Positions 36,710-57,660 of a DNA stretch of 64,000 nt are shown piece after piece. The notes under the pieces were generated by a model, which was not told the DNA's origin, ran no database searches, and was given only the letters and a program-made list of their open reading frames with translations. The stretch's first letter is position 1. Each line of letters begins with the position of its first letter. Source of the DNA: Bryum argenteum. Taxonomy: Eukaryota; Streptophyta; Bryopsida; Bryales; Bryaceae. The stretch is taken from the NCBI GenBank assembly GCA_037043015.1, contig CM073323.1, positions 8,370,001-8,434,000 on the forward strand. The letters are read 5' to 3'. The translations under genes were made by a program, and so were the position numbers.

Positions 36710-38470
36710 AAATGAAATACCTGATTATTGGACGTCCTCAAAACGTCACTGAATGAATGAAAACAGGATCCAATATGCATCAAAAAGTTTCACCACTTCA
36801 TCATTGAACATAATGTAGATCAACTATGCACATGATTGGCATGCACTTCTAATGCAATAGTACTAGTTTGTCGGTGGATTCCGGAGCACGCGAATTCATT
36901 TTGGCACCCTCTTGTGATAATTCGCAACTCGATACATAGCATTTTGAAAGTTGAAAAAATGTTGAATAGAAACATTTTGTTAAGATGATTGACCATTGGC
37001 TATTATTGACTATAATTGGTTATTAAATTATTGGCTTGACCGCACCAACATTGATTCAAGAGCCGTGAAGAGTATTTGATGTGCAAATTTCCTGTTTGAC
37101 GTACCCAAAATTTGTTTTTTTGTCCAAAGATGTACTAAGTTGGAACGAGCTCTATCCTTCTACAAGTAATGGACGATCTACCTATAGTTTGTAGCGAGCT
37201 TCCATCTCATTTTGTTTGATTGATTTTTTAAAAATTCTTTGAAGTTTTTATTTTTATTTTTATTAATCATTTAAAAGAAAATATATTCTTTTCGATTTGG
37301 TTGCATTTTGTGTAGTATAAGTTATATTCCATTCGATAAAAGTCAATTTCATTTAGTTACATTTGGTTTTAAGTACTATTATTTAGGTTAATTTTGTTTG
37401 GTTTTGTTTGATTTTGTTTAGATTTCTACTTTTATTTCTTATTATTTGGAGTTCTATTTAGGTTTTTTTTTTTTTTTTTTTACTTAGAAAAAAAAGATTG
37501 TAGAAAAAGTACTGCTTCATAGAAGGAAAAATATTTTTGTAAGAGAAAAATCTTGTACAAAAAGAATACTTCATTAAAAAACCCATACATTGTAGGGAAA
37601 GTAATACCTTGTGGGAATAGCCTATACAGTTATAGCTGTTTAGTATTTTTAAAGCTCACACAGATTCTCAACAAGGAGTGCAGTCCTTTTTTCTAAACTC
37701 GATTGAGATTTTGGGGTAAGTGGTTAACCCCTTAGAGCCAATTAACCATTTTAAGAAAATTTCAAATTTTGAGGAGCGTGCAAAAAAAAAAAAAAAAAAA
37801 AATCTTATTGAATTTTGGTGGACTTAGAACCACACCTAATTTTCAAGACCTTGTTTGGAATCACATATTGTTCACGTTTAAATCTATATCTAAGTTGTGG
37901 ATCAACAAAAAAATAATAAAACTTAAACCATACGTCGACAAGGTGGAAGAAAATTGGAGTTTTTGGTTTTAAAGGTCCAAAAAACACTTAGCTTTTCAAG
38001 GGTTGATGATAATAAAGTCCTTAGTCAAAAAACATCCTCACTCATAGTGCAATGCATCTAATGGCACAGATTGGTTTGAAGGCAAGGTATGAAATATTTC
38101 ATGAGCATTGCATTTTGTGATTATTTATAAAGGAACAACAAAATTACGTCAAACATAATAAGCACAAAGAAATTGAGTTGGAATTATCTTTGGTATAGGA
38201 CCTAGGGTTACTTTTTTTGTGAAATGTACTCAAATGCAAGATTGTGCAACACCAAACTGAGTTTGCCAAATAGAATGGTAGAATAATTAGAATCTAAGTG
38301 GGTTAGTGTATTTAAAGTGTAAAAGCAAGTCATGTCAATCTCCACACTCTTATTTGAACACGTAATTCGTTATAATGGGAATATATACTGATTTTGGTAA
38401 TTAGGGAGACTTCCATTTAGATCGATTCTGACCTGATTAGTTACCAAATCACCAGGTTTTTACTGATAAC
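36710..38470. other. AT-rich intergenic DNA
   Basis: Contains T-rich and A-rich homopolymer tracts at about 37,461-37,481 and 37,782-37,802. No supported gene. Confidence 0.5.
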
Positions 38471-38873
38471 GATGAATTTTCTCAATATAAAAGACAATAC
38501 TAGTAAAGATTTCATAACGCAAGCTAAGAAATATGCTACCCCAAGAGTAAATTTTATTCATATGAAAGCACAAATACAATTTATTGGTGTAATTGTAGAC
38601 CTCCAACAGGTAGGCACTAAATTAATCTACCAATTACGACGTGGCGGAGAAGAGGTATCACCAGAAGTATCATTCTTAGTGAATAGAGGGTCCTCACTAC
38701 GTGTGTATTTAGAGAAGGCAGGTTCGTCCATCTCCATAAGCCCACCAATTCTACGACGCTTCGGTGCACGTCTCCGTAATAGACGGTGAGACTCAGTCGA
38801 AAATCGTGTTGGATGAACGCGAGTGTTTGCCCCAAGAGATAAGGAGCAATGAGCCCCAGTATTTGGCAAGGAA

Positions 38874-38900
38874 CTATTTAGCTCGAGACGAGCTAAATAG
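38874..38900. repeat. Single diverged palindrome copy at the left edge of the block
   Basis: Arms CTATTTAGCTCGA and CGAGCTAAATAG pair around the centre. It is the leftmost copy of the palindrome family in the window and lies just downstream of the last minus-strand coding piece. Confidence 0.85.
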
Positions 38901-38966
38901 GCACGGGCGTCGACGACGGGGTTGCGTGATCTGAAGATCACCTTGGGGTGCCGCAACCGGTCATCA

Positions 38967-39248
38967 TCACACCGATTCGATCATTGCCGGTTGCAATAAT
39001 TGGTTGAATCTCAATAGGGGATCGCTTACTACACCATCATCGTCATTATCCATGTCCTCCTTCGTGTAGTCTACAGCCGACGCATCGTCCGGAGCAAAGT
39101 AGATTAGCCGTCCCCGCATTCGTTCTGAGAAAGTTCTGGAGTCGTCACTTGTAATGGAAGCCTCTGAAACCGTCGAAGGACCAATTACAAGATTTGCTTG
39201 CAAAGCACATGATGCATGTGGAGAGAGCTGACGTCCAACAACAGCAAC
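38967..39248 (-). pseudogene. Possible last exon of the right minus-strand locus
   Basis: 93 codons and a stop follow a good acceptor (ATGAACCAG/GTTGCTG at 39248). The peptide VAVVGRQLSPHASCALQ continues into an acidic stretch (KEDMDNDDDGVV). No domain is recognised. The phase does not obviously match a donor at the end of the upstream HAD-like piece, so the join is uncertain. Confidence 0.35.
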
Positions 39249-39450
39249 CTGGTTCATAAACACAACCATATTAGCAAGAGAGTACAAGACGCTAAGTGCA
39301 ATGAAAAAGGTACACAATATAAGAACGCATATAATCATGTATGTCGAGGGTGGATTCACCAATCGATCTACATTATATCTGGATCTAAGCAATCGTTAAA
39401 CATAAGCTTTCCTAGGGTAAAAACCAGAACAATACCACTGATAAAAGAAT

Positions 39451-40520
39451 TTAAGGCAAATTCTTCCCACTGATTCGGTCCTGATTCCACATATATGGAA
39501 GATTACGGCTCAAGAGCATATACAACTCTGAGTCCTTCGACAGTTCATTTTGCGTGGGTCTACGATGGCGCATAGTCTCGGCGAAATTTTCAGGACCGTT
39601 CAAATGCACGGAAAGACATATCTCGCCAATCCTCTTCAAGAAGTCGGACTTTGGATCCTCGGGACAGGAATGGTTCCACGGAACAGTGAAAAGTGTGTTC
39701 TTTGTGGGAACCGCAATGCAAGTCTCGGGCTTGGAATCGACAATGAGCAAGTTATCGTCATTGAAATTGACACCCTTCCTAGGATACAACCGCCGTCGAG
39801 GATATTTTAAGAGGATGGGATTTGTCGTGTCGGGGTACTTGGCGAATGCGTAATTCTTCAACAACAGATTATCGCATTGGTTGGAAGCCAAGACAAGTCC
39901 AGGGGCAGCGTCTGACTTCGAGAACAAAAAGGAGCAGAGTCCATGGACAACCTTAGGATCTAGGGTACTCCAGACGTGGACGTGGCAAAACAAATTTAGT
40001 AAGCGAAGGAACCCGGTCAACCCGGGACGACAGTAGACGACCCTGCCGGCAACTAAGGTTGGGACGGTGGAGGAAAACACCGGAGGATTATTGGGATCCG
40101 AAAAGACAGCACTCTGCAGCGTTGGGGTAGACACAGAGGCCATCGAACATAGAACCCCGTCCAGCTCAACATCACATTCAACCACTTGGGCTTGGACCGT
40201 AAAAAGACATGGGGAGATATGCGTAATGGGTAGCTCGGGCGAGATACGCTGTTTGGGATGTTTGGACGGTCCTGCCTGCAGTGAGGGAACACGTAACAAT
40301 GGCAAATGGTATTAAAACAAGAGGTCGTGTACCTTGCAAAATGCTGAAGTATGCAAAGAATCGCCAAGATTGATTGGAGTCTCAACCGCCACACCCAGAG
40401 GTAACATGAGGTGGTTGGTGGGGGATTTTGAAGCAATCGGACGGAACAAGGTATTCAGAAGGGGGGCCTGATAGAAAAGGACGAAGTTTAGGGCCTTGTG
40501 ATGAGAAGGACGCAGACTCA
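39451..40520 (-). pseudogene. FCP1/NIF-like HAD-fold domain region, probably decayed
   Basis: The exon 40275-39451 follows the acceptor CTGCAG/GCAGGACC and ends in a stop. It has the order of an FCP1-homology (NLI-interacting factor) HAD phosphatase. There is a strand with ECDVELDGVL, then YCRPGLTGFLRLL, then a strand with VWSTLDPKVV, then NDDNLLIVDSKPE, then a C-terminal helix region. In active enzymes the first motif is DxDG with a nucleophilic Asp. Here the aligned position appears to be Glu (ELDG), so catalysis is doubtful. The upstream exon, about 40520-40333 with donor GCAAG/GTACAC, reads well only if a frameshift near 40,385 is allowed. It may belong to the same transcription unit as the methyltransferase-like part or be a separate gene. 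Confidence 0.5.
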
Positions 40521-40769
40521 CTGAAGATAAAAACTGATTTGAAAAAAAAGAGTCTCAATTTTATTGAATGATGTTTCAATAAGTACAACGATAATAATTG
40601 TACTATGTACAAAAAGAAACAGCATCCAATAATTCGAGACTACTCGTCGACCTACTCGCCAAGATCGGTGCGGACTCTGTCAAACAAGGAGCGCCGGCTT
40701 TAAGATTACTAAATGCGAAAACTTCAAGAGATGAGGGAATAGCAGAGCAAGGAAAGGATAGTAACTAAC

Positions 40770-41186
40770 CTCTGGATTTGCCGGTGAAGTTATTGCCGTC
40801 TCAGTAGCAGCCCCGGGAGAGTCAAGGGTAGGAGGAACATCGGTAGCGACCACGGGAGAGTCAAGGGCGGAACAACTTCGGTGCGACCATGGGAGAGTGG
40901 GTCGGCGTCGCCGCCTCAATCCGGGACATCGCCTCTTTCCCGGCTTCTCCGAAATCTCGAGGGGTATGGGAACGGGTGCGATCTCCGGTTCAGCAACAAT
41001 AGGAGGCTGTGGAGGCGCGACAATGGCTGGTTGTGCAAGCGCGACGATGGAAGGATGTGGAGGCGCGACGATGGCTGGTGGACTCGCGTCGCGAATCTTT
41101 GAGGCGAGGTTGATCGGGGTTGATGGAGGCAATGGGGACGGAAAACTAGGCGGTTGGGATAAGATATTCCCGAATGATTGAAACAT
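40770..41186 (-). pseudogene. Ala/Pro/Val-rich segment of the right minus-strand locus
   Basis: An open piece from the ATG at 41186 (MFQSFGNILSQPPSF) to a donor at 40770 (CCAGAG/GTTAGT). It has repeated units of the type PAIVAPPHPSIVA. It starts 15 nt after the stop of the acidic coiled-coil piece, so a frameshift or a separate start is needed. It is a probable disordered linker between the coiled coil and the HAD-like domain. Confidence 0.35.
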
Positions 41187-42000
41187 CTCGCTCCATCTTG
41201 CCTAGTGCCATGCGGGTTTGGATCGAGAGGCGAGGAATGTGGACTCCAATTTGTCCACTCGAGCATTCGCAGCTGCGATGTCTTCTAACCTTTGCCTCTC
41301 TCTTACCGCTTCTCTCTCTGCTTCTTCCTTTGCCTTGCGAGCCTTCTGAGCCTCCTTCTCTTGCCGCTTCTGTGCTCGCTTCTGATCCTTCGTGAGCAAA
41401 GGGGCGACAACTTCCACTTTCACTGGTGGTTGTGAAGGCTCTCCTTCCTCCGTGAGCAGAGGCATGACAGGAAGAAGAGGATCATCCTCAGCCCTCAAAG
41501 GCTTTGGAGAACTAGGCTCTTCCGAGAAGTCATAAAACCGGACTACTTTGGTATCCTCCGGCTCGTCCTCGGCCTTCCAAACACCTTTCACTAACCATTT
41601 GTCATACTTCCCCTTCTCAATCTGCCTCCTGGGAGGGCTCTGCGGGCCCTGGGGAGAAGGGGCCAAAGTAGTCTCCTCCTGGGATAGATCAGGAGCCACC
41701 TCGTCGTCTAACGTCATGGCCGCGAGATCAGCATCATCAGCTTGGTTATCGTCATCCCCGTCGCCATCGCTCGCACCCTCGACATCGTCATTGTCTGACG
41801 AGTCAGAGCTGTCGGATGATGATCCATCCCGTGGCACTCGCTCTTGCCCAGGTTCTTCATCGTCTTCGCCAAAGATATCCCGGTAGATGCCATCGTTGGA
41901 GTTCTTTGAACGAACCTCCCTCCGAAACCCGGGGGGTGGAACAGTGTGCTGAACCGGAGTCACAGCGGCCCCAATATCGACGACCCCAGGAGACTGCACG

Positions 42001-42022
42001 TTTAGCTCGACTCGAGCTAAAT
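42001..42022. repeat. Palindrome copy inside an open coding frame
   Basis: Arms TTTAGCTCGA and TCGAGCTAAA around C. The minus-strand frame stays open through it, adding LARVELN between an Arg/Pro-rich and a Val/Pro-rich stretch. Confidence 0.9.
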
Positions 42023-42261
42023 CCTCCTCCGTTGGAGGACCACGACGCAGTCGCCGGAGGGGGGGGCTCTCAATGTCCCCGACGACATCGGAGGCCCCAA
42101 AGTTGGCTTCGGGCGCCCTCCGTGCTTGAGGCACAGAAGCGCTTCTCGACCGAGAAGCCTCTCCAGCTCGCGCCTCAGAAGAAGAACGCTTGGTAGATTC
42201 GCGGGGAGGGGCGCGTGCTGTACCGCGACCATGTGCCGCAGAAGACCGAGCTCGACCGCTT

Positions 42262-42351
42262 CCACGACCCTGAGGGGGAGCACGAGCAGTACCACGACCC
42301 TGAGGGGGAGCACGAGCAGTACCACGACCACGAGGGGGAGCACGAGCAGCA
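42262..42351. repeat. 30-bp minisatellite, three copies
   Basis: Unit starts at 42262, 42292 and 42322. It encodes the GRG/ARAPP repeats on the minus strand. Confidence 0.92.
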
Positions 42352-42749
42352 CTCGACGGAATTGCAACCGCAGCCCAGTCAATTGCGGGAGGAGAAACCA
42401 GAGAACAAATAATCCATGGGGGAATTCATCCCCGCCGGAGAAGAAGGACCACCTTCATCTTCATCCTCGTGCTCAGAAGCGGAAGAGTCGTCGCTTGCAG
42501 GCTGGGTGCTCTTCTTCTTAGACATCCTCTTCTTCCCCTTCTTTGTCCCTTCAGCAGAAGGCTTGGGTCCGCGATTAGCTTCTGGATTGACGTATGCTGC
42601 GACGTTGATATCGTTGTAGTCCAGATGTTGGTAATCCGACGCAACATTCGTATAAGCCTCCTTCTCAGTCTCGCTGATAACAACATATGTCTCAGCCTGG
42701 CACATCTGTGAAAGAAGGAGAGAGAAACATATAAGAAGAGTAAGACGAA

Positions 42750-43048
42750 ATAGCTCGACTCGAGCTAAAAGGCCTTGGACAAAATACATGATGAAGAGAA
42801 TTAAGCATGAGAGTGTTTAGCTCGACTCGAGCTAAACAGGCAGGAGAGTGTTTAGCTCGACTCGAGCTAAACAGGCAGGAGAGTGTTTAGCTCGACTCGA
42901 GCTAAACAGGCAGGAGAGTGTTTAGCTCGACTCGAGCTAAACAGGCAGGAGAGTGTTTAGCTCGACTCGAGCTAAACAGGCATGAGATCGTTTAGCTCGA
43001 CTCGAGCTAAACGAGCATGAGATCGTTTAGCTCGACTCGAGCTAAACG
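42750..43048. repeat. Palindrome array B, intronic, 35-bp period
   Basis: One copy at about 42,750 is followed by seven regularly spaced copies with cores starting at 42816, 42851, 42886, 42921, 42956, 42991 and 43026. Arms are extended to GTTTAGCTCGA and TCGAGCTAAAC around a central C. The array fills the predicted intron between the exon ending at 43092 (donor GGAATT/GTAAGT) and the acceptor at 42705. Confidence 0.95.
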
Positions 43049-43091
43049 AGCTTGTGGAATTCAAATCGAAGGAATGGTGCAATGTACTTAC

Positions 43092-44436
43092 AATTCCAGC
43101 CAACATTGGCTTTGTGCCACCCATAATCGATAGAAACTTCCCTCCCGGAGATGAGAACATCTTCAGCACCCGACAGTAGAACTCCAATCGGAGCTCGGTA
43201 TCACTGAGACCAAGGTGGTGTTCTCTGTACGCGCCGGGCTTCGAGTACAGGGGCAACTCTGGAGCGTAGAATACAGAGGGTATCGCATCCAACACACTTT
43301 GAGCATGGCTGCTCTTCTTGACAAGAAAGAGGAGGGGGAGCAAGTGCTTCTCTGAAGCTTTTCCTCTCGCAATGCCGTTGAAACGCTTCGTTCTTTGGCC
43401 GGCATGTAGTTGGTCGCTTTGCGAGAGACTTGTCCTTCAACTTCTTGTCCACGTAAACCATTGCCTGGCGATTCACGGTCGACGTTGGAGGTGATGAACA
43501 TCCAAACCTCGGGATTCTTGATGTGAGGATCGGTCACGGTGTCCCGCCCCACACATCAAGGAATTCTTGAAAGTATGGACTCTCCGTGTCGTCCACTCTA
43601 CTTCCGCTCCCCGGGACAGCTCGCAAATCAATCAAGCCTAAATCACACTTACTTGATTGGTTCCAGGCGTAGTTCTTGTCCCAAATCCCGAATTTGAACT
43701 CGGAAGAGTGAAAGAGCCGCGTGTAAACAGTCGGTGCAGGAGGTTGAAACGTCCCTTTGACATCCAGGAACTTCTTGAAGAACTCAGCTGCATATTCCGA
43801 TATCTCTGCTGCACTCCTATTCTTCGTCTGCTTTTGGCGGTAGAGGGTGAAGAACGAGTCGCCCGGGACGGAGAGAAGCATGGACATAGTCTGACGAGTC
43901 AGATTGTATTCCACCTTAAACTTCCTCCAGTTGTCGACGTCGAACTGCCATTCCGAGTCGAACAAACCAAGCGAGGGCTTGAGGTTGTGCAGTTCCCTCG
44001 CGACAGTGTTCTTCCTCTTCCGATTCTCGACCCACTGCTTTGCACTCATGCACTGAAAGTATTTCTTCGCAGGCTTCCTCACGGCCACCTTGGGGTAGGG
44101 CAACGTTCGATCCGAGTCTCGTTCGGCAAGTCTTTGCGCCAAGACCTCGAGGTTCTCCGCGTCCAACCGCCCCATTCCTCAAGAACTCCTGTTCAAGGTG
44201 AACTTCTTTGAGGCGGTTTCCCGATCTTTCGCCCGATTGAATGGGAGCTCGGTGTCGGGGTCGATCGGCTCTCCAAGATCAGTAGTCGCGATGAACCTCT
44301 TCCACAACTCGTAGACGTCGTCGGGTGATGTGATGATGAGGAGCTCGTTGCGAAGGTCGGACGGTCTGACGATCTTGTCCTTCACGTTATTGTTGTTGAT
44401 GCTGATGAACCTCTTCACCATAGCAGCCGCGAATGC
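43092..44436 (-). pseudogene. Methyltransferase-like exon 3 of the right minus-strand locus
   Basis: From the acceptor TTTCGTGCAG/GCATTC at 44436 to the donor at 43092. Pieces read in order: AFAAAMVKRFISINNNNVKD, an in-frame stop near 44,179, GMGRLDAENLEVLAQRL, a segment with KCDLGLIDLRAVP near 43,625, a frameshift near 43,540, NPEVWMFITSNV, then frameshifts near 43,340. The end reads LSDTELRLEFYCRVLKM then FSSPGGKFLSIMGGTKPM. The last stretch has the helix, PG turn and glycine-loop order seen at the C-terminal end of beta-class DNA amino-methyltransferases (compare PGDxVLDPFxGSGT). The key acidic and FxGxG residues are replaced. IDLRAVP may stand where DPPY normally lies. At least four interruptions argue for a pseudogene. 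Confidence 0.45.
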
Positions 44437-44474
44437 CTGCACGAAAGCCAAACTATTAAGAAACAACCTATGCT

Positions 44475-44499
44475 GTTTTAGCTCGAGTCGAGCTAAAAC
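44475..44499. repeat. Single palindrome copy in an intron
   Basis: Arms GTTTTAGCTCGA and TCGAGCTAAAAC around a central G. It lies in the predicted intron 44567-44437 of the methyltransferase-like locus. Confidence 0.93.
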
Positions 44500-44567
44500 G
44501 ACAGTCCCAAACACGTCGACAGAGAATGCAAACAAAGCCAACCGGAAAAAGTTAAGACCAGGTAATA

Positions 44568-45882
44568 TCATACCTCATAACGCTTCCGGTTATCTACTTC
44601 AACCGGTGTTTCACGTCGATGCGGCTTCTTGAGCTTCTCAGGGCGGCCATAGTCTTCCTGCATCTTTCTAGCGCCCATGATGTTCGTTGCCCGGAAGGTA
44701 TGAACGTCCCCAAAGATTGTTCGTCTTGTTCGCCATGGCCGACACGTCCAAAATCTTGTTGATGTTGTAATGCCACACAACGCGGGCTTTCCATGTCCAA
44801 GGGCGAGGACCTTCGATTCGTCGATCTTCTTGTCCCGAATCAATCGCTTCGCACCTCAACGTGGTCTTTGCCCGTCGATAATTCGAACCGACAAGATTAG
44901 ACCGAACGTCCCAATCCCAAACCTCGTGCTCGGTTTTGATCTTCGGCATTATGATGATGGTTTGTCCGGAAGTTACATCAAGAGAATTCATCAAGATGTT
45001 CTTGTAATGCGCGATGCCTACTTGGTTCTAGAGATCGCACGATGAACCTTGGTTCGGAAGGGTCAAGGAGGTCGATCGACACGTCAAGGGGATTGTCACG
45101 ACCAAAGACATAACACTCTCCACACCGTCCCCCAAAGTAGTCCTCCGCAGACTTTGTCGCTTCCTCGTCTTGATGTCCTTCTCAGAGACAGCCACGTTCA
45201 TGGTAGGGTTCATGAACGTCAGAGCGCTGCCGGAGGATTTGCTCCTCTTCGATCCAGAGCTGGAAGAGTTCGGGTTTGGACGCTTCGTACCCTGAACGCC
45301 CAGACTTCCCTCTGGAGTGCCTAGACCCGACGGAGCATTCCCGGATAGAGCCTGCAACATTAGATTCCCGGGCCGCTTCATTGGAGCCTTGCCTTTCTTC
45401 TTTGCATTCTCGAAATCAGAGAGAGCCTTCCAGATCTGCGCAGTGTAAGGAATGTAGGATCTGGTGAAGATTTTCGGGGAAGACTGATTGGGCTGCAATT
45501 TCGTGTCGATATGATGAAGTTGATTGGCATCGACCTTCCCGACCATGAAGCTCCGGATGAAGTCGTGGGAGAAACGGACTTCATTAGGGGGAAACACAAT
45601 AGTGAAGACGAATCCTTCGACCTCCACTGCTTCGAACTTGATCATGAGAAATTCGTGCTCATATGTAACAAGTTCGATGAAGGCATCAAGACACAGGGGC
45701 AAAAATGCCCCGTGAGATCCTGACTGTTGATAAAAGAAGAAGTGGGTCTTGTTCATCGGACGAATCGACCAAGACTTGATGGAATGTTTCTTGGGGGTCC
45801 ACAATTTTCCCCATTGCGCGTCCAGAAAAATAGCTGCAAGCGGATCGTCTGGTGACTCGATTTCAACTGGAGCAAGGAATCC
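44568..45882 (-). pseudogene. Methyltransferase-like locus, exon 2
   Basis: It follows the predicted acceptor CCTGGAG/GGATTC at 45882. It is open to about 45,130 with FLAPVEIESPDDPLAAIFLD, a globular stretch with HEFLMIKFEAVEVEGFVF, and a Ser/Lys-rich linker (KRPNPNSSSSGSKRSKSS). After a frameshift it reads GECYVFGRDNPLDVSIDLLD, then after a second shift KNILMNSLDVTSGQTIIIMP, then after a third ARKMQEDYGRPEKLKKPHRR to a donor at 44568 (CGTTATGAG/GTATGA). No characterised domain is recognised in the N-terminal part. Confidence 0.45.
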
Positions 45883-45936
45883 CTCCAGGGCTTGCATGTT
45901 ATAAGTGACATGTGCATAACAAAATAACAGAGGGCG

Positions 45937-45959
45937 AATTAGCTCGATTCGAGCTAAAT
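45937..45959. repeat. Single palindrome copy in intron 1
   Basis: AATTAGCTCGA and TCGAGCTAAAT around a central T. It lies inside the predicted intron 46001-45883. Confidence 0.9.
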
Positions 45960-46001
45960 GGACATATTAGAAGGGAAAATAGATGTTGAGTAGGTTATTA
46001 C

Positions 46002-46106
46002 CTCAGGAGCCGACTCTTGATGCTCCACTTCCATGTTGATTTCAGGCTCGGCAGGTGCATTTGAAGCCATCTGAACAATTCTGGCAGTTTGTTTGGTTCT
46101 CGGCAT
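46002..46106 (-). CDS. First coding exon with a histone H3-tail-like N-terminus
   Basis: The ATG at 46106-46104 opens 35 codons that end in phase 0 at a donor (CCTGAG/GTAATA). The protein begins MPRTKQTARIVQMASNAPAE. Histone H3 begins ARTKQTARKS after Met removal, so RTKQTAR is identical at the same register, with Pro instead of Ala at position 1. The rest is acidic (NMEVEHQESAPE). An acceptor-like TTTGAATGACAG lies 3 nt before the ATG, so the exon is probably preceded by a leader intron that holds palindrome array C. The following exons are decayed, so this exon may no longer be translated into a full protein. Confidence 0.55.
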
Positions 46107-46226
46107 CACTGTCATTCAAATAATGAGAAACAAATTGTAAGATTTACAGGGGCAGTGGCACATCTTCATTATCTTGGCGATCAAACCGATAAAATATAAA
46201 CATGCTGAGATTAAGTGGCGAGCCCA

Positions 46227-47134
46227 TTTAGCTCGAGTCGAGCTAAATGAGCATACATCCTTGTAGCACGTCACGCCCATTTAGCTCGACTCGAGCTAAA
46301 AGGGCCTGGCCTTGTTTGAGGTCCGTGCCCATTTAGCTCGAGTCGATCTAAAAGGGCTTACTGCTTTGTTGCATGTCAAGCCTATTTAGCTCGACTCAAG
46401 CTAAATGGGCCTGGCCCTGTTTGATGTCCGTGACCATTTAGCTCGAGTCGAGCTAAATGGGCTTGAACTGCCACATAGCAGTAAGCCCATTTAGCTCGAT
46501 TCGAGCTAAATGGTCACGGACCTAAAAAGGCCATGCCCATTTAGCTCGAGTCGAGCTAAATGGGCTTGCCATGATACAGGGCAGTGAGCCCATTTAGCTC
46601 GACTCGAGCTAAATGGGCTTGCCATGAAACAGGGCAGTGAGCCCATTTAGCTCGAATCGAGCTAAATGGGCTTACTGCTATGTGGCAGTTCAAGCCCATT
46701 TAGCTCGACTCGAGCTAAATGGTCACGGACCTTAAAAAGGCCAGGCCCATTTAGCTCGAGTCGAGCTAAATAGGCTTGACATGCAACAAAGCGGTAAGCC
46801 CTTTTAGCTCGACTCGAGCTAAATGGGCCTGGCCTTTTAAGGTCCGTGACCATTTAGCTCGAGTCGAGCTAAATGGGCTTCTTGCTATGTGGCAGTTCAA
46901 GCCCATTTAGCTCGACTCGAGCTAAATGGTCACGGACATCAAACAGGGCCAGGCCCATTTAGCTCGAGTCGAGCTAAATAGGCTTGACATGCAACAAAGC
47001 AGTAAGCCCTTTTAGCTCGAGTCGAGCTAAATGGGCTTGAACTGCCACATAGCAGTAAGCCCATTTAGCTCGACTCGAGCTAAATGGTCACGGACCTAAA
47101 AAGGCCACGCCCATTTAGCTCGAGTCGAGCTAAA
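46227..47134. repeat. Palindrome array C, 18 copies, 50-54 bp period
   Basis: Cores start at 46227, 46280, 46332, 46384, 46437, 46490, 46540, 46593, 46645, 46699, 46750, 46802, 46853, 46905, 46958, 47011, 47064 and 47114. Each has arms TTTAGCTCGA and TCGAGCTAAA around one base, with few mismatches. The flanking bases are often also paired (CCCA with TGGG, ACCA with TGGT). About five spacer types recur in both orientations. A donor-like ATT/GTAAGTTGC on the minus strand near 47,453 would place the whole array in the leader intron of the methyltransferase-like locus. Confidence 0.96.
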
Positions 47135-47184
47135 TGGGCTTGGTGGTATTGGAAAATCAAGTAATCTAATGAAGCTAATGTGGT

Positions 47185-47280
47185 ATCTAGCTAAATTGGC
47201 ATCGAGCTAAATTGGCATCGAGCTAAATGGGCATCGAGCTAAATGGGCATCGAGCTAAATGAGCATTGAGCTTAATGAGC
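47185..47280. repeat. Half-site tandem array, 16-bp period, six units
   Basis: Units ATCGAGCTAAATGGGC or close variants start at 47185, 47201, 47217, 47233, 47249 and 47265. Each carries only the right half of the palindrome. The array is at the outer end of array C. Confidence 0.93.
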
Positions 47281-47289
47281 TGAAACTTG

Positions 47290-47965
47290 AAAATGGGCGC
47301 ATTGCAGGAGAAAAACACAAATTTCGACGCAAATAACACAAATCGGAAGACCTCTATTACTGTGCGAGCAACATTTCATAGCATTCTGCCCTGCGATGTA
47401 CTGAAAATGGAATTGAATCAAAAACCTAAAAGACAAGAATTAGCAACTTACAATGAAGCAAGTGAGAAAATGCGCTGTAGATGCAGCAATGATTCGCGTC
47501 CAAATGCAGGCGAAGAAAGGCGCAGCCACGAGCGTCCACAGCGCAACAGCAAAGCGAAAAAGCCGCCCAAAGCTTGAAAACAAGCAAGCTCGAAAAAGCA
47601 GGAAGGAGGAGGAGTCTAAAAAGCCGCCCTAAGTCTCAAAACAAGTGCAAAAGCAAGGAGACAGAGTGCGCGCGAAAGGCGGTAGGAAGGAGGAGGCGGA
47701 GGCGCGCGATTAGCAGCAAAATGCAGGAGCGGCAGACACAGCGCGAGGGAGGAAGAGGGCGCAGGTGCGGAGACAGAGCGGAGAGCGCCAAAGCAGCGGA
47801 GACAGAGCGGAGAGGTGCGGTGAGAAAGCGGAGAGCCCGACGCTGCTGTCGGCAGGGTTTCCCGCCAGAGCCCGTCCGCCGCAATCTCCAGGCTGCCCGG
47901 GCTGCCCGGGCGGCCCTGACTGCCCGCTCTGCCCGAGCTGCCCGAGCTGCCCGGGCTTGGCCGCC
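47290..47965 (-). promoter_or_regulatory. GC-rich, pyrimidine-rich leader/promoter-like region of the minus-strand locus
   Basis: On the minus strand this is C/T-rich and rich in CGCTCTCCGC-like words, with a (GCCCGGGCT)-like simple repeat at about 47,890-47,960. The mirror-image region at 52.14-52.68 kb has the same character for the plus-strand gene. The Arg/Ala-rich open frames on both strands here reflect composition and are not called as genes. Confidence 0.4.
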
Positions 47966-50900
47966 CAGTTTTTGTTTTTTATTTTCAATTTTTTTTTCTT
48001 TAATACTTTCAAATTTTATGTCCATTTTTTGGGTTTTTGTTTAGTTTATAGATAATCTCTAAAAATCATGTGTGAAGGTTTGAACATATTTGAATAAGGA
48101 GTTCGTGCATGGGTATGGAAAAAAAAAAGGGGAATAAATATTTTGTGTACTTCATACTTTATATAAGCCATGGAAATAATCCTAGTGCCAAAAACAAATA
48201 CTAAATCAATACTCAAAAATCATTTGGTTTCATTAGAACAACTTGTAGTTTTGAATGAGGAATTGGTGCCTTTGTTTTGGAAAAAAGGGTTGAAATTTTT
48301 TTGGAAATTTTCCTAGGTAATTGGTACCCTATAAAGTATATAGCGTGTGTTTTGGAAGCATGCAAGAAATAAAAGAATTTTTGAAGAAGTACACAAGTTT
48401 AATTATTTAGACTTGTCAAAATAGGAGGCGCTTGGAGATGTATTCAAAAAAATTTATTGGAAAGGGGTTTTTATATGTGAAGTAGGTAATAAGGATTCAA
48501 TAAAATTTATGGAATCACCAAAATAATTTTTTAGAAATCGAAACTATTTTTCCCGATTTACTTTAGATTACCTCTATCGGCCAGAACTTTGAATAATTTG
48601 TAGAAAATATAAAGAAGATGAGAAAAAATATTTTTGAATCTTAGGTTAGCTAACCTATAAAATTGATGGTGACATTTAGAAATTTGTGAGGGGTCATAAA
48701 ATAAATCATAGGGGTAACCCATCTATGTGTCATCGTTTACGTGGACCTTTTAGAAATTTGAATAAGGAGGTGATTAAGAAAATGATGGAAAGAAGTTGAT
48801 TTTAATATCTAAAATAGCTACGTAGGACCATATGAATGTGGTGGAAGTGTAAAAAATATCATAAGGCAAATGGAACTTTGTCTAAAAAATTTCGTGAGTA
48901 TTCAATAACTCAGCAGAATTTGAAGTAGGGGGCAAGTGCAAATGTAATTATGTGCAAAAAGGGAGGAAGAGTGGTTTTTATAACTTTAATTCATAATTCA
49001 TGTCATATGATAACTATGGTGAAAATATTACGACCACGAGACAATGCAAGTATTTCTTTTTTTTCAATTTTTTTTTTATTTCGTTACTTTAAAATTATAT
49101 GTTTAATTTTATTTGTTTTTGTTTAATTTATATGTTTTTGTTTTCACGCATTGAATTAAAATAGATCATTTCTATGATTAAAGGTTAAATTAATTCGTAA
49201 GAAATCAAAATAAACTGAATAAAGATATTTTTAAATCCTAGAGTAATTATCCTATAGAATGTTAGTTAAATATGTTCAATTGGTAGGAAAGCAAATTAAG
49301 GTTAAGAAACATAGTTTAGATCTGAAAATGAAAACTTATAAATATGATGTTGATATTTAAAACTTGTATAAAAAACAAATCTACATGCTACGGGTTTTTT
49401 GTAAAAGTTTTATTACTTTCGAACTATGAATAATTCGTGAAATGTAAATAAATAAAATACAATAATATATTTGTAGTGATCGTATTAAGAATATTATATG
49501 CTTGGAAAAACTATGTGTAGAAAGAAAACGAGGATTGGATAATCCGTCAGTATTTGAAGTAAGTAAAAACATCTAATATAGTGGCAAATAGAGAGTGTAA
49601 GTGGTTTTTATAACTTGATTGCTTTACTTGTTTCCCCTACGCAATTACTTCCTCTATTGGATCAATCTGTTTGTCTCGAAATAGCGCAACCAATTCTCAT
49701 TGCGTGAAGGAAATAACTGAGGAATGCACAGCTACTGTGATGTGAGCAGCGCCGTCATTCTTAAATGTCTCCCGCAGCAAGCTTCTTTTAGGGTCAATCT
49801 CATTTTAACGGAATGAGTCTCATTTTGATTGAAATTCAGATATGCATAGTCGATATCCTATACGTAAGTATTCTTTCTTAAGTAAAGATAAAAGTGTTTA
49901 ATTTCCCAATTGCATTCAAGTAATTGTATAAGGAAGTGATTATCATTTCTAAAATACCTAAAGACAACCATATTTTTGTAGTGTACGTGTTAAAATTATT
50001 AAATGCTAAAAGAAAGTATTTGTAAAAAAAAAAAAAGAATTCAATAATCCGGCATAATTTTAAGTAGGTAAAAACAAAAACTGTATGGGCAAGTCTGTGT
50101 AACTAAGTGTTTTGTATTACCTTAATAGAAAAATAGTTATTCAATATAAATAAATAAATGAATATATATATATTAATAAAAATAACTATAAAAGATTTCC
50201 AATTCAGCTTCCTTATAAATCATGAAGGTATAATGTTCAGAGTTGGAAAATAATTTTTTATTTGTTCTTGCATAGGCAAACCTAAGTTTCTTAAGATAGT
50301 AAGATACAAAATTACAAAAAAGAAATTTTTGATTCTAAATATTTAATTTTCATAAATAAAACGTTAACTGATTTGACCTACATTAAGTAATTTTGTAGGC
50401 AATAAGCATACTGTTAGCACGGAATAAAATAAAGTATTTAGGCACAATTAAAACTGCATTTAATTTATGTATGACGAATGCCCTTGATTATTAATCTACA
50501 TTTACTCGTTTACTAGGGAAAATTTAATGCACAACCAACACATTTGATTCTCATAGCTTAATATACGAATCTCCTAAAAATGAATGTGCCATTTGCAACC
50601 ATTTTACAGTAGCAATTATCAGATTGATTCAATGAAAGAACCAAGCGCGGAGCAAAATCAAGTGAATCAATACTAATATGATCTACTGGAAAATACGGAG
50701 GCTGCACCAAATTGACCGGATGAAGAGCTTCCAAGCGATGCAAACAAGCGCAAGAAAGAGAATGAGCGCGAGGATTACCTAAAGTAGCATGAGCGAGGAG
50801 TAGGAGCAAAAATCAACGGCGGAATAGCCAAAGGACATGTGCGCGAGAAAGTAGAGAGTGCGCCAGGAGATTGAATGCGTTGCGAGAGTCCTCTATTAGA

Positions 50901-52139
50901 GTATAGAATTTAGGCTAACGAATTTAGGAATTAAGGTTTTGGTTATTGAGTTAAAGGTTTAGGATTAAAGGTTAATTATTTTTGAACTTAAAGAGTAAGA
51001 ATTGAAAAGTAAACATAGAAGTTCGATATCAACTTTACAAAAAAATGCGTAAATGCGGATACATTATAATTTTTTGAAACTAACTTTAGAATACTATAAT
51101 ATATAAAACATCCTAGCATAAGAATTGAAGTAAAACAGAATATTATTATGTTTGAATATCACACATAGAATACTAAACTTCTAAAAAACATATAGTCACT
51201 CAATGTTAACAAGACTGAATTTAAAAGCAATAATAATATACTTTAAATATATTATACTTTAAGTAATATACTTAAATTATCCTATTGGAAATAACACACT
51301 TGAAAAAATACGTAATAAACTTATGATTTCTCAACTTATTCACTGTCTAAATAGTTATATGATATTATATCACATAAATATGTTGAATAATATGTTTATA
51401 ATGGCCATTTGTAGAATATCACATTCAACTTAATTGAATATCATACGTAATACACCACACCTAATTAAATAGAAACTAATCTTATAGGATCACATTTAAA
51501 TAATGTGAATATAATATTTACTATAACTGTTTCAACGTGTAAAGTATTTATCTTTTAATATTACATGTAATTTAGTAAATACAAATCTTACAATTATACT
51601 TCACAACACCTATCGATTTTAATCAATTAAGCATAAACGCTAGGCTTAAAGACTATAAAGTTGTAAAGAATCACCTTAAGATCATGATTATGAAAAAGCG
51701 AATCATGAAAAACTCTTTTTAATTTCACGTAATTGGCTTGCAATCATAATACATGCTCCATGCTTGGAGTTCCAATAAAATAAAAGAGTTGTTTTCACTT
51801 AAGTGCATTTCATTATTTCATACTTTTTGCAAAGTTTAGAATAGAAACTAGACTTGATTTGGAGCAAAACCTAAGTGATATCATTCAAAACGGACCTCGG
51901 ACGAAGAAGATATGGCTATTCAAAGTTATGCTTTCTATTCAAAATGTCGTTTTTGACATTCGGCGCATTAAGAGTTTAACATTCTAGTGCCCGATATGAG
52001 ATTATTTTGTTCATTTGAGTTTGGGTTATCCATTGTCCTCCCGAATCCGGTTTTTATTATTACAATTATGTAATTTCTATTTTTAGAAGTATTACAAATT
52101 TCTCCGCGACTTCACTTCAAATGATTTTCTTGGCCTAAG
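47966..52139. other. AT-rich spacer between the two divergent genes of the right block
   Basis: About 4.2 kb with no supported gene, palindrome copy or recognisable element. It has short (TA)n and (AATA)n stretches, for example near 50,150-50,190. Confidence 0.55.
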
Positions 52140-52677
52140 ATGTCCTCGTTCCTCCCAAATTTCCGAAGATGTCCTCGTTCCTTGCGAAGTTCCCGTTCCT
52201 TGTGAAGTTCCCGTTTCCCCCAAGTTCCCATCCACGCCGCTTTTACTCTATACCGTTCTTCGGCCGTATTTGGCGCCCTTTCTATTTTGAGTTCGTGATC
52301 TTGTTTGGCGCCATTTCTCTTCCCGCTTGCTCGGCTCTCTCCTCATTTGCGCACTATGCGCTTTCGCTCCTCTCTTGCTCCGCTCTCCGTGCTCTTTTCC
52401 GCTCTCCTTCGCTCTGCTGCGCTCCCGTGCTCTATCCGCTCCTCTCCGGCCGCGCTCTCTGTTGCCCTTCGCCTCACCTCCGCACCTTCGCATCTCTCGC
52501 CTTCGTCTCTCATGCACTCGTTTTGCCTAAACTCCCTATTACCATTAGTGCTTCCGGTTTTGCAAATTTTGATTAGGGTTTGGGACTCTAAGAAGCTCGG
52601 GAGTTGATGCGCGTCTTTGCTTTGAGGATGCCCAAGGCCTTCGTTGAAATACCGCAGCAGTCAAGCACGGCGTGAGG
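52140..52677 (+). promoter_or_regulatory. Pyrimidine-rich leader exon of the right DUF7869 gene
   Basis: A C/T-rich block with repeats of CGCTCTCC-like words and a local repeat of GATGTCCTCGTTCCT near 52,140-52,180. It ends at a strong donor (GTGAGG/GTAAGTTCG, GT at 52678). It is joined by the predicted leader intron 52678-53737 to the exon with the start codon. Confidence 0.45.
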
Positions 52678-52949
52678 GTAAGTTCGATCTATATCCTCAA
52701 TGTCAATGTATAACAAGAGATTGTTGTTGATTGGTCATGTCTTGCGTTCATTGTGGTGCATTCCTGATGGCAATGTGGATATCGTCGGTTTAGTTGTGCA
52801 CGGAAATCGAGGCAAAGTTCTTTTTTTACTTACGCATTCCCCAAGAACGATTCATAGTATTTGCTGTGCACGAATATCGAGGCAGTTTCATATAACATAT
52901 GCATGATATGCTCATGAAGTCCTGTACTGAAGGATTCACTCGATGCCCA

Positions 52950-53644
52950 TTTAGCTCGAATCGAGCTAAATGGGCTTGCAGTGAACCATAGCTGTACGCC
53001 CATTTAGCTCGACTCGAGCTAAATGGGCTTGCAGTGAATCAGAGCTGTACGCCGATTTAGCTCGACTCGAGCTAAATGGGCTTGATCTGCTATGATTCAC
53101 TGCAAGCCCATTTAGCTCGACTCGAGCTAAATGGGCTTACCCTACAACGGAGTGGTGTGCCCATTTAGCTCGACTCGAGCTAAATGGTCATCCGGTTTTA
53201 ACTTCGTCGTGGTGAGAGTTGAGCAGTTATCTTGAAGACCATTTAGCTCGAGTCGAGCTAAATGGTCATTAAGAAAACTGTTCATCATTCTTACCTCGAA
53301 GCTGTTGAAACTTGATGACTATTTAGCTCGACTCGAGCTAAATGGTCTTCCTCTTCGACATGCTTCAGTGTAAACATAATGTATTAAGATCTTCAAGTCC
53401 ATTTAGCTCGAGCCGAGCTAAATGGTCATCCGCGTTTAATCGCCAGCGGTGAGTGGTGAACAATTTTCTCGATGACCATTTTGCTCGAGTCGAGCTAATT
53501 GTTCATTGAGAAAACTGTTCATCACGCTTACCTCGAAGGTGTTAAAGCGTGATGACCATTTAGCTCGAGTCGAGCTAAATAGTCGTCAGTATACACATGC
53601 TTCGTGACTGAGTGGTGAATTCTTATCGAGTCGAGCTTAATGGT
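52950..53644. repeat. Palindrome array D, ten clear copies plus one degenerate, in the predicted leader intron
   Basis: Cores start at 52950, 53003, 53056, 53111, 53164, 53242, 53322, 53402, 53479 and 53559, with a degenerate copy near 53,624. The first five are about 53-55 bp apart and the rest about 80 bp. In the 80-bp part the spacers on either side of a core also pair (for example GCAGTTATCTT with AAGAAAACTGTTC), so hairpin arms reach about 30 bp. The array lies within intron 52678-53737. Confidence 0.95.
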
Positions 53645-53743
53645 CATATATTCTTAATGGTAGTAATCATTTCTGACTGCACGTAAATATAGCTACCAGT
53701 GATTTCTCATGATTGTTTATTTATTGCTGGCATTCAGGTTATC

Positions 53744-56685
53744 ATGGAATTGAGTGAATCCGATGGCGACGATGATTTGCAGCGTCTTTTTTCGGAGGTA
53801 CTGGACTTACTTATTTTGCATAATACAATATTGTTCTGAGATCATCCATTCGTACTAATTCGTCTATGTTTGTGGTCTTTTAGGACTTGGATGGTCCTTC
53901 TGAGCTGGTTCTTCCGGACCATTTAAAAGATTGCCCAGGACTACCCAGAAGTAAATGGGTTACGAAATTTGTGACACTTCTCAACGATAGTGGGGACGTT
54001 GTTGGTGAAGGCATTTGTCAGACTCTGGACGCTGAAAGAATGCTTGAGAGTAATGACGAGCCCGTATGTGAAGATCAAGTAGTTGTGCAGATCGTGAAGT
54101 GCTTAAATTTCGACTACGTTCCTGCTGAGACCATTTACGGGACCAGGAGCTGGAAGCTCAGCCATGCTATGCACGAGGGTTGGTCACTACTTGATCATTT
54201 ACGAGTTGATCAATTCAACGTCGCTGTTTATGCCCGCGATCATCCAAAGAAGAAGGGGGTGCGACCGTATGATTTGGGAGAACGGAACCAACGGTTTGTG
54301 AGGACTAAGAGGGAGGAGGAGCTTTTGACGTTGGATTCAGTCAACTTGGTTGCAAGCAAGATTTGCTGCAGCAAGAACTGTTGCCAACCTTTCCCCCGTG
54401 AGAAAATTATGGCTCTCCGGAAGCAGATGTACGAGGCGTCAGGTTTTAAATTTAAATCACATTTCAAGATAGATGTTCATAATCGTTTTCATCAGGCACC
54501 AGACGGCACGATGATGGTAACCACTGAAGGCATCGATGTTTGCGCGCGTGCATGGCAACATATTAGTGGAGTTCCGATTTCCACATTTTACAGGCGGAAG
54601 GCGGAAGCTGCAGCTGGACTACGTGCTCGCCACCATGGGAATGTTGGTCAGAAGAAACCACGATTGCATGTAAAGCAAGCTGTTGCTACTTTGAAGACAT
54701 TCATTGACAATGCTGCTGATCATATGCCTCACCGGTCGAAGATGTTGACATCCGGTGAGAAGGTTGTCTCTCGGTCTTTGCCATCGTCTTTCAGATGGAA
54801 GGATGCTATACCAGGTATCAATGACATCAATGAGAGGTTGGGCTTGAAGTCTATTTCGCAGAGCACACTGAGCAGGATTAGGAGGTCAAAATTTTCTGAG
54901 TATTCAAAGAAGGCGTCTGGGGACAATTTTGCTCGTTGCTCAACTTGTGACAGGATGGAGACAATGATCAAGTCTATGGTACCTGATTCATGTGAAGAGA
55001 CTATGTGGATCAAGAAGCTAGAGGAGCATTTGCATCATCAAGAAACGCATCGTGAGTATTATTATTCAAATCGTTCTCTTTCTATTCAGCGGCCGAGAGA
55101 TGTCCTTTGTATAATACATGACAAAATGGATCATGCGAAGACTGCCTGCCCAGTATTTTCACATAAAACAAAGGCAAATGATGCATTGATGAAGCTTCCA
55201 ATTGCTGTGACTGGCATGATTGCTCACGGGCATAGCGATGTCCGGTATGCTCATTATGGGCTCGATATTTATCCAAGTGATTGCAATCACACTGTTGGAT
55301 CAATATTAAAGCTTTTACGAGATCTAGAAGGTGTTCCGATCTCGTATTCGAAGTCCTTATTCGCAAATTCGGGGTCACTGCCTTTATTTGAAGCTGTACT
55401 GTTCGGAAGAGAAGGGTGTTTAAACTCTCTTCTACCTGAAAGTGAAGTTTCTGGGGTGGCGGAGCCTCTACCTCCTGTCCTGCATGTGCAACTAGACAAC
55501 GCAGCTTCTGACAACAAGAATAGATTTATGTTTTGCTTTTGGTCTCTTTTGGTACACATGGGTGTGTTCCGTGAAGTATATGTCAATTTCTTGTTAGTTG
55601 GACATACCCACGAAGACATTGACGCCCTCTTTGGGCGTTGGAGCATGACTCTCAAAGAGAATGACTTTCTCACACTTCCTCAGTTGATGAAGTCATTTAT
55701 GAACGCGGAGGCTTTGCCCGTCATTCCTCATTTGATAGAGGAAATACCTGACTTCAAGGGTTATATCAAAGACTACATTGGTTCCAGAGATGAAATTTTA
55801 GTTGGGCATTCGTAGGTCGATAGTTCAAGTTTTACAAGCATGACAATGGATGGCCAATGATGCAGTATAAGATGTTATGCACGGACAAGGAGTGGTTACC
55901 TTCTACTAATGGAGGTATAAAATTGTGGAAAGAGGACCGAAGTGCGGAAACCAATGTTACCTACAAAGACATGAAACCTTTGGCGCCCATTCCCATGAAG
56001 AACCGTGATGACATTGTAAAAGGCATTGGAGGGTTTATTAAGATGTGGGAGACTTCAAGTGCGGAGGACATATCGGGAGAATTTGGTCGGCGTCATGAAT
56101 TTGTTATTCGCTATTGGCGAGTATGTGAAGTCGGGCGTTGGTTGAGCCTATAGAAGTGTCCTCGATTTTGAAGAACGGTCGTTGGCCTTTAACTCGAGTA
56201 CTGCGACACGAGAATTCTTAAATCTTGCGAATCTGCGAGAGGAATATGGCCGTGATCCGCACTTTATCGGACGGTTGTGTGATAGACCAAGGGAGTCGTT
56301 TCGGGTTGGTCGAGATGTTTATCTTTGGATATTTTGTAGCTCTCGTCCAAATGATGGGGATGCTCGTCCTTTTCCGGATTGCTAGGGCTCTAATCGATTT
56401 CGATGTTGATCACAACTATCCAGTCGTATTCAAATGCAATATTTTCAACCCGCATCAAAAAATAGTGTTGTTCGGAAACCTATCTTTGGTTGGGATACGA
56501 AGAAGACATTCAAATGGAAAGTTGAAGACACTCACATTCCGGAATGGCTCCATGCTGATGCTATTTTTACGTCATGGAAATCAAGTGCAAAACTTGGCTC
56601 GCGGCGTCCTATTATTTCATTATCGGAGCGTCAAATCGACATCATCAAACAAAGTATTGAGCGATTCGACGATGGAGAGGAGTAG
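53744..56685 (+). pseudogene. DUF7869-type transposase-like gene, open for 661 codons then frameshifted
   Basis: Exon 53744-53797 (MELSESDGDDDLQRLFSE) joins in phase 0 to exon 53884 onward, open to a TAG at 55813-55815. The protein has a Cys cluster (CCSKNCC, about 179-185), GIDVCARAW (about 234-242), a CSTC and HLHHQETH putative zinc site (about 370-406), IIHDKMDHAKTACP with D431 and D434, VQLDNAASDNKNR with D556, and LLVGHTHEDIDALF (about 589-601). Three acidic clusters about 125 and 40 residues apart would suit an RNase H-fold DDE/D nuclease. That is inference. After the TAG, homology continues in other frames: FKFYKHDNGWPMMQYKM, then frameshifts near 56,130-56,150 and 56,390, ending at 56685 with a region resembling BAH/PWWP-type readers (RPNDGDARPF, WLHADAIFTSWKS). 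The long intact part suggests recent activity or selection. Confidence 0.75.
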
Positions 56686-56714
56686 CCTGTCATCCCTACT
56701 TTATTTGGGCATGC

Positions 56715-56741
56715 TCATTTAGCTCTAGTCGAGCTAAATGA
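56715..56741. repeat. Single palindrome copy downstream of the DUF7869 gene
   Basis: TCATTTAGCTCTA and TCGAGCTAAATGA around G, with one mismatch. It lies about 30 bp after the end of the last coding piece. Confidence 0.9.
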
Positions 56742-57011
56742 CCTCAGTGCAATTTGAGCTGTCTATTTATCGTGTGGTGACTTTTTGCCAATAGATTCAT
56801 CTTTGAAATGGACATACTAGAAGTCCTACCATTCGTAGTTAAGTATTGGTACGGTTTTTATGCCTTAAAGTTAACAATGCAAGTGTTTGTAAATTTATGG
56901 CCTTGGTCGTCGATTCCCAGTTTAATTGACTTTATCATTTTATTGTGCTCTTTTAGCAAACTGCTGTCAGGATGCATTTTGCTTTTGCTATTATCATCAT
57001 CTTCTGTATTC

Positions 57012-57085
57012 AGTTTAGCTCTACCACATGCGCGTTTAGCTCTACATCACGCGCGTTTTGCTCTTAAACACACACGTTTAGCTCG
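57012..57085. repeat. Half-site array, 21-22 bp period, four units
   Basis: GTTTAGCTCT at 57012 and 57034, GTTTTGCTCT at 57055 and GTTTAGCTCG at 57076, with CACGCG-like spacers. Only the left half of the palindrome is present. It is the rightmost trace of the family in the window. Confidence 0.85.
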
Positions 57086-57589
57086 ATATATATGTTGGAA
57101 TTTAGGTCGATTGGTTTTTGAGAGTTTGGATATTCCCATTATAACGAATTACGTGTTTTTGGACAAAACTTGAAATTTTTTTATATGGTATTCTTTCATA
57201 GTGATACAAAATTATGGGGTGTTCAAAATTGTATAATAAGTAACTGTGAGTTTTTGATTTTTTTTCACCCATCAATGTTTCTCAAGAGCATTTGAAAGTG
57301 ACTTTTTAAGTGACTTTTCAAGGACATTGCTCTTTGAGGTTTACAAGCGAGCATTGGAAAAGTCAGAAACATTCAAAATTTGTGAAAATGAGTGCGGTTA
57401 GGAGATAAACCATGATATCATGAAGAATAGTAGTATCGTTGAAAAAATGCGTCCTTGTAGAGGCAAAACTAAATATGCTTTTAAGATGACATGAGTCAGT
57501 GCCAAAAGGACACATTTGGTTCATTAAAATAACATATAAAATGATATTAATACTAGTATTAGTATAACAAAAAAATTGCATGGCAATCC

Positions 57590-57660
57590 TTCCTACCTAC
57601 CAACGTACCAACCTACCAACATACAAATCTACCAACCTACGAACTTATCAACCTACCTAC
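57590..57660. repeat. Imperfect CCAACCTA-type microsatellite
   Basis: Repeated CTACC and AACCTACC words. Confidence 0.9.

Follow-up and report, generated by a model that had tools for sequence, protein, structure and literature searches.

Palindrome arrays in a Bryum argenteum locus belong to a large two-gene DNA transposon, in which they are conserved and strictly spaced

What kind of unit carries a palindrome that is repeated over and over in one stretch of the genome of the moss Bryum argenteum, and what might its copies be kept for? The stretch in question (here called the window; 64,000 nucleotides; NCBI GenBank assembly GCA_037043015.1, contig CM073323.1, positions 8,370,001 to 8,434,000 of the forward strand, with positions below counted from its first letter) had been described in an original prediction, made from the letters alone, as holding at least 40 copies of the palindrome between 38.9 and 57.1 kb. 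The copies were found here to belong to a large DNA transposon, within which they are conserved and strictly spaced; it carries two genes, namely gene A, which matches DUF7869, and gene B, which is transcribed divergently from it.

Matches to TTTAGCTCGANTCGAGCTAAA at up to 3 mismatches were counted in the window, and 41 were obtained, all of them at 38877-56738, against an expected mean of 0.01 from 100 dinucleotide shuffles. The core is 21 bp long and reads TTTAGCTCGA-N-TCGAGCTAAA. Its search in the whole genome (258.8 Mb, 25 contigs) gave 5,878 exact copies, the reversed-pattern control of the same 258.8 Mb gave 0 sites, and the exact palindrome was found 0 times in the viral contigs searched. 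The family had been called specific to this block, which is correct inside the window and incorrect for the genome as a whole. The predicted periods were recovered in array B (35 bp, 42816-43046), array C (50-53 bp, 46227-47134) and array D (53-55 bp and then 77-80 bp, 52950-53579).

The block that carries the palindromes is a single DNA transposon of 18.8 kb (38357-57157), as judged from its inverted terminal repeats and from the 4-bp target duplications that matched in 11 of 11 elements (10 full-length ones and one miniature inverted-repeat transposable element, MITE), and the unit first delimited at 42750-53644 was too short. A 26-bp part of the terminal repeat was present at 611 + 627 genomic sites at up to 3 mismatches, with 0 in the control. 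Nine further copies were taken from pairs with exact end repeats, so that the sample leans to young copies, and they made up, together with the window copy, a set of 10 full elements of 16.2-20.1 kb. The fetched stretches held 27-44 palindromes each (3 of those in copy E8 fall outside the terminal repeats), and 362 palindromes were located inside the 10 elements. Just beyond the right end of the window element, an 8-bp tandem repeat of the ACCTACCA type is situated at 57595-57662.

The exon and intron limits were set by eye, by using splice signals and open reading frames in the window and in copy E2 (Table 1). Two divergent transcription units flank an AT-rich spacer, and 38 of the 41 palindromes of the window were intronic, 28 of them in four introns of gene B and 10 in intron 1 of gene A; the remaining three were in exon 5 of gene B, in the last part of gene C and in the 3' untranslated region (UTR) of gene A, respectively. 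No palindrome was present in the 5.2 kb that separate the two 5' introns of the window by these hand-set limits, and the largest palindrome-free gap of the middle part accounted for 24-46% of element length in 10 of 10 copies. The right end held 2 or 3 exact half-sites in each of the 10 copies. Direct repeats of the half-site, with a 16-bp period, were also seen at 47173-47277. A distribution of this kind, mostly intronic and with no site between the genes, would suit RNA hairpins with a role at transcript level, as precursors of small RNAs or as structures used in splicing. On the sense strand of the 10 copies, however, the mismatched pairs comprised 33 G.U, 37 A.C and 91 others, double changes inside the core restored pairing in 2 of 7 cases, and the centre of a related motif (motif III, see below) is not self-complementary. 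The hairpin explanation was rejected on these counts and on that centre, and is regarded as highly improbable.

What is kept seems to be sequence rather than RNA structure. With spacing counted in the 10 full copies and spacers of 0-30 tested, exact arms were present in 233 of 362 sites and the spacer was 1 in all 233. Five single sites were aligned as orthologues in 7-10 copies each (the intron-3 site in 7 of 10 and the intron-2 site in 9 of 10), and their arm identity was 0.948-0.990 against 0.853-0.895 in the flanks, with centre-base identities of 0.44, 0.64, 0.52, 0.78 and 1.00. At three of the five, none of 122 flank windows of 20 nt matched the conservation of the arms. One of the five lies in exon 5 of gene B, within an open coding frame, and a second is probably coding. 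If the palindromes were neutral repeats, that is, selfish palindromes or satellites expanded by slippage and hitchhiking in the element, the variation of array copy numbers among copies would be accounted for, but not the pairing of exact arms at spacer 1 only, nor the fact that single orthologous sites are better conserved than the surrounding sequence, with the centre base drifting at 4 of the 5, and next to no credence is given to this explanation.

Outside the core, the outer arm bases had been said to vary between copies and to stay paired, and this was borne out in part. In shuffles that treat the sites as unrelated, outer pairing at 230 sites on the gene B/C side exceeded the shuffles at positions 1-3 (0.87, 0.78 and 0.65 against 0.55, 0.55 and 0.58, respectively) and was not above them at positions 4-8, and at 132 sites on the gene A side it was clearly above them only at position 4 (0.70 against 0.44).

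The same ends as those of the transposon were carried by a 147-bp MITE repeat pair (151 bp counting the two outermost bases at each end). A MITE family with these ends (L029-L058; 150-151 bp) occupies at least 40 near-identical places, with 70-74% agreement between its copies and the query complement. Target duplications were exact in 24 of 28 MITEs (hand count, including the first MITE), and two degenerate palindromes were recognized by eye in 28 of 28 readable copies of 30 loci. A perfect palindrome as a cis requirement for transposition is weakened as a candidate by these 28 degenerate copies, which share one founder.

Other lineages of the element were found to carry other motifs. The DUF7869 motif VGHTHxDxDA, searched for as a DNA pattern, gave 293 + 300 genomic sites. 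At two loci, 5' of DUF7869 genes that lack the palindrome of the window (motif I), different motifs were read at the same intron position, namely motif II, TTCAACTCGANTCGAGTTGAA (locus L061; 875 exact copies), and motif III, TTTAGGTCGCTGTCTGCTAAA (locus L060; 30-bp period; 59 + 48 exact copies). All three motifs are 21 bp long, and motif III retains TTTAG and CTAAA around an asymmetric centre. Exact motifs were then tabulated on contig C1, over the first 1.31 Mb for motif I (12 genes) and over about the first 8.6 Mb for motifs II and III (77 genes). At 1.0-4.5 kb 5' of a DUF7869 gene, motif I was present at 5 of 12 genes, motif II at 5 of 77 and motif III at 6 of 77; at the same distance, 16 pairs were on the 5' side of the gene and 0 on the 3' side. 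A satellite without link to DUF7869 genes, the case that had been named as speaking against the original prediction, is therefore not what was found, common as the core is. Label shuffles equalled the observed clustering in 156 (motif II) and 1,477 (motif III) of 100,000. All three motifs were tested at 12 genes, of which 5 carried motif I, 1 motif II, 1 motif III and 5 none, and two motifs were together at 0 of these 12 genes and at 0 of 65 further ones (II and III). A gene B motif was found 7-14 kb 5' of 10 of the 16 motif-bearing genes, divergent in all 10, with 0 of 16 in the 3' control.

Gene A identity to the window copy was 84-89% for L001 (motif I), 67% for L060 (motif III) and 49% for L003 (motif I), and gene B pieces beside motif I were 24-30% (L005, L007 and L008) or 30-34% (L059) identical. 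At L059 (C1:1052501-1059500), motif I copies with each of the four possible centre bases form a dense, irregular array around the gene B homologue of a different lineage. An identical motif I in elements with gene A at 49% and gene B at 24-34% would be expected of a host transcription factor site that serves the elements as an intronic enhancer. Sister lineages nevertheless have motifs II and III, equal in length and at the same place, and these would demand different host factors or broad tolerance; a host factor is held to be improbable. Motif I-type peptide runs were also obtained in 5 of 157 homologous proteins, where shuffling expects 0.05 (LARxEL) and 0 (FSSxRAK), respectively: LARxEL in P0029 (gene A homologue, residue 18), P0143 and P0144, and FSSxRAK in P0145 and P0146. 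P0143-P0146 are gene B homologues, in which the run lies close to the C-terminus of the protein as predicted. All these runs are read as gene predictions extending into palindrome-bearing introns. By this reading, motif I appears to be retained at its position in other elements or genomes, some of which may be the host's own.

Gene A matched DUF7869 with an E value of 8.7e-40 in Pfam, and it and the homologues P0001, P0007 and P0008 matched this family alone, with no Mutator-like transposase. The window copy is damaged, its main frame closing at 55815, and sister copy E9 is open over 933 codons. As an RNase H-like fold with an invariant acidic triad was predicted for P0001, gene A is likely a DDE transposase. 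The named-organism relatives of the window protein were Ceratodon purpureus and Physcomitrium patens among the 120 of 190 matches listed. Gene A gave no match against plasmids, a PDB profile search with it gave a single match (E 0.084) that is not a transposase, and DUF7869 was not mentioned in the open-access literature searched. Compared by description only, the element shares with the Sola superfamily the 4-bp target duplication (given for Sola2 in the accessible part of PMC3627910), a probable DDE-type transposase and a moss host (Sola1 is tabulated for Physcomitrella in the part available of PMC9033089). It is unlike bivalve Sola1, for which a curated mean of 5,445 bp is given in the excerpt of PMC10294476, in its length of 16-20 kb and in its second long gene.

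A query with gene B of the window family found no homologues, whereas a copy from a diverged lineage did. For homologue P0144, a ParB/sulfiredoxin-like domain was predicted, followed by a second conserved region; 25 of the 27 top rows of the fold search were ParB, Noc, KorB, PadC, SerK, SbnI or sulfiredoxin, the other two carried no function name, and the model is consistent with the ParB N-domain fold. Past residue 420, in the region of the expected helix-turn-helix, the model is largely of low confidence. NGQHSV is invariant in 20 A2 members, and copy E2 of the window family reads GQHHVEAA. Among gene B pieces and homologues, no Pfam family above the cut-off was seen except NIF, and one homologue had a PF20277 match at 0.001. 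The end of the second half (ELRMEFYLQVI..GESI..FAGTK..ASV; P0124 and P0137) resembles a degenerate DNA methyltransferase motif by eye, and Pfam and PDB profiles gave no match for it. An FCP1-like phosphatase domain, as in gene C, is present at the end of several Ceratodon gene B homologues and, in Ceratodon protein P0122, is fused behind the gene B homologue (E 5.2e-12). The usual phosphatase start is DxDx, and the domain begins with ELDG in copy E2 and with DLNG in P0122; in gene C it is perhaps an inactive phosphatase.

The tail of histone H3 reads ARTKQTARKS. By DNA reading, MPRTKQTAR is encoded at the start of gene B in 8 of 10 copies, with E4 and E6 differing by one residue, and a PDB search with its 22-residue N-terminal peptide gave no match. 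The genome holds 66 M-x-RTKQTAR sites: 52 are of the MPRTKQTARI type and 12 are H3-type starts, and the remaining 2 (E6 and C1:13757748) lie in the same kind of element. Because the sites are of these types and none is in the motif II or III loci placed on C1, the H3-tail mimic was rejected as a general mechanism. The resemblance to H3 is an analogy only with SNAG domains, which, in the accessible part of PMC8080763, mimic H3 as hooks for LSD1.

Table 1. Coordinates of the features of the transposon in the window
Feature	Position	Strand	Remark
Target site duplication, left	38353..38356	.	TTTG
Terminal inverted repeat, left, 28 bp	38357..38384	+	AACACGTAATTCGTTATAATGGGAATAT
Single palindrome, last part of gene C	38877..38897	.	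hand-read frame of copy E2: AYLARLELN
Gene C part, NIF/FCP1-like phosphatase domain	39451..40305	-	Pfam PF03031, E 3.3e-5
Gene B, four introns upstream of long last exon	40790..46106	-	3' end approximate
Palindrome in gene B exon 5	42001..42021	.	copy E2: LARVELN, open frame
Gene B intron 4, array B	42706..43091	-	8 copies, 7 at 35-bp period
Gene B intron 3	44437..44573	-	one palindrome (44477)
Gene B intron 2 (approximate)	45900..46001	-	one palindrome (45938)
Gene B first coding exon	46002..46106	-	starts MPRTKQTARIVQ, histone H3 tail-like
Gene B 5' intron, array C	46109..47451	-	18 copies and half-site direct repeats
Palindrome-free region between divergent 5' introns	47500..52680	.	AT-rich spacer and two 5' exons
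Gene A 5' intron, array D	52678..53737	+	10 copies
Gene A, DUF7869 transposase	53744..56685	+	limits by eye
Single palindrome just past gene A, 3' UTR by eye	56718..56738	.	one mismatch common to 10/10 copies
Subterminal direct half-sites	57013..57084	+	TTTAGCTC, 21-bp period
Terminal inverted repeat, right, 28 bp	57130..57157	-	
Target site duplication, right	57158..57161	.	TTTG

We lean towards reading the palindromes as sites for a putative element-encoded binding factor with a regulatory or anti-silencing role. Among the roles first proposed for them, binding by a transposase or a chromatin protein fits best, and small-RNA hairpin precursors are not supported. A dimer of an element-encoded protein would occupy each 21-bp site, the likeliest binder being the gene B product, possibly together with the DUF7869 transposase. 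Through such binding along its transcribed parts, the element would recognise its own copies, and the bound protein would shield the two genes from silencing, leaving them active, or would regulate them. With the switch of lineages to other 21-bp motifs, each set of proteins would come to serve elements of its own type, in the manner proposed for VANC and VANDAL motifs in Arabidopsis. In the accessible parts of PMC5735166 and PMC10398659, VANC proteins bind short tandem-repeat motifs in the non-coding parts, introns included, of the VANDAL elements that encode them, which leads to loss of methylation, and the motif arrays are element-specific and diverge between related elements. The moss arrays are likewise non-coding and lineage-divergent, except for one window site that is coding and one that is probably coding. 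VANDAL elements are Mutator-like, whereas the moss element has a 4-bp duplication, a DUF7869 transposase, a gene B mostly without Pfam match and a two-armed site of 21 bp that is once in an open coding frame; the likeness is one of description, and anti-silencing is suggested by analogy only.

In En/Spm, the element protein TNPA binds motifs repeated near an end. The moss element has such motifs as well, and there binding by an element protein is putative, but CACTA ends are absent, the duplication is of 4 bp and not 3 bp, and the main arrays are internal, in the 5' introns. The KorB operator, like the moss palindrome, begins with TTTAGC and ends with GCTAAA. With ParB-parS, Noc and KorB-OB (for KorB, in the part available of PMC11790492), the moss element has in common palindromic sites that form arrays and, by prediction for gene B, the ParB-type fold; the moss case differs in being a transposon in a eukaryotic host, in having GQHSVA instead of GERRxR and in that no DNA-binding domain was identified in gene B. 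A more elaborate scheme, in which the ParB-fold gene B protein would load at the palindromes, spread over transcribed chromatin and keep it open, helped by the FCP1-like polymerase-tail phosphatase and, in the window family, by an N-terminal mimic of the H3 tail, and in which lineages that switch motif would stop serving each other, is considered quite doubtful. Among the open-access literature matches listed, no such element was named, and searches with the palindrome arms as text strings returned unrelated titles among the matches listed.

Several observations weigh against sites for an element-encoded factor. At two of the five single sites, 18 and 30 of the 122 flank windows were as conserved as the arms, and at two of the five (intron 2 and 3' UTR) a mismatch is fixed in all aligned copies. 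Exact motif II or III was absent from 66 of the 77 C1 genes and any motif from 5 of the 12, and the 1.0-4.5 kb range was chosen after the positions of three arrays were known. No gene B motif was in range at 6 of the 16 motif-bearing genes (3 of 5 for motif I). The motif of ParB that binds phosphate is the one replaced in the gene B homologues, and P0144 and P0145 are 85% identical, so that the five protein footprints are not fully independent. Perfect palindromes are unnecessary for mobility, since the MITE family was amplified with two degenerate ones, and, by the identities given above, motif type does not track transposase similarity. These last two points also bear on the alternative that the DUF7869 transposase itself binds the sites, with half-sites near the ends guiding transposition and internal dimer sites in the 5' introns giving autoregulation or titration, in the way of TNPA in En/Spm: the MITEs moved in spite of their degenerate palindromes, and the uncoupling of motif type from gene A likeness is evidence against a simple model with the transposase alone. 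This alternative is judged unlikely, and binding by an element-encoded factor, with gene B as the foremost candidate, is the reading retained here.

For the moss and for the family, DUF7869 gains a likely identity as a DDE transposase, and moss transposons of 16-20 kb with a second gene largely unmatched by Pfam are described. They provide what appears to be a second and independent example of arrays whose motif is specific to the element and changes from one sister transposon to another, and a ParB-type fold beside palindromic arrays in a eukaryotic mobile element would be unexpected. Gene targeting works in mosses, and with related lineages of a single genome carrying three different motifs, the addressing of an element's proteins to its own copies would be directly testable.

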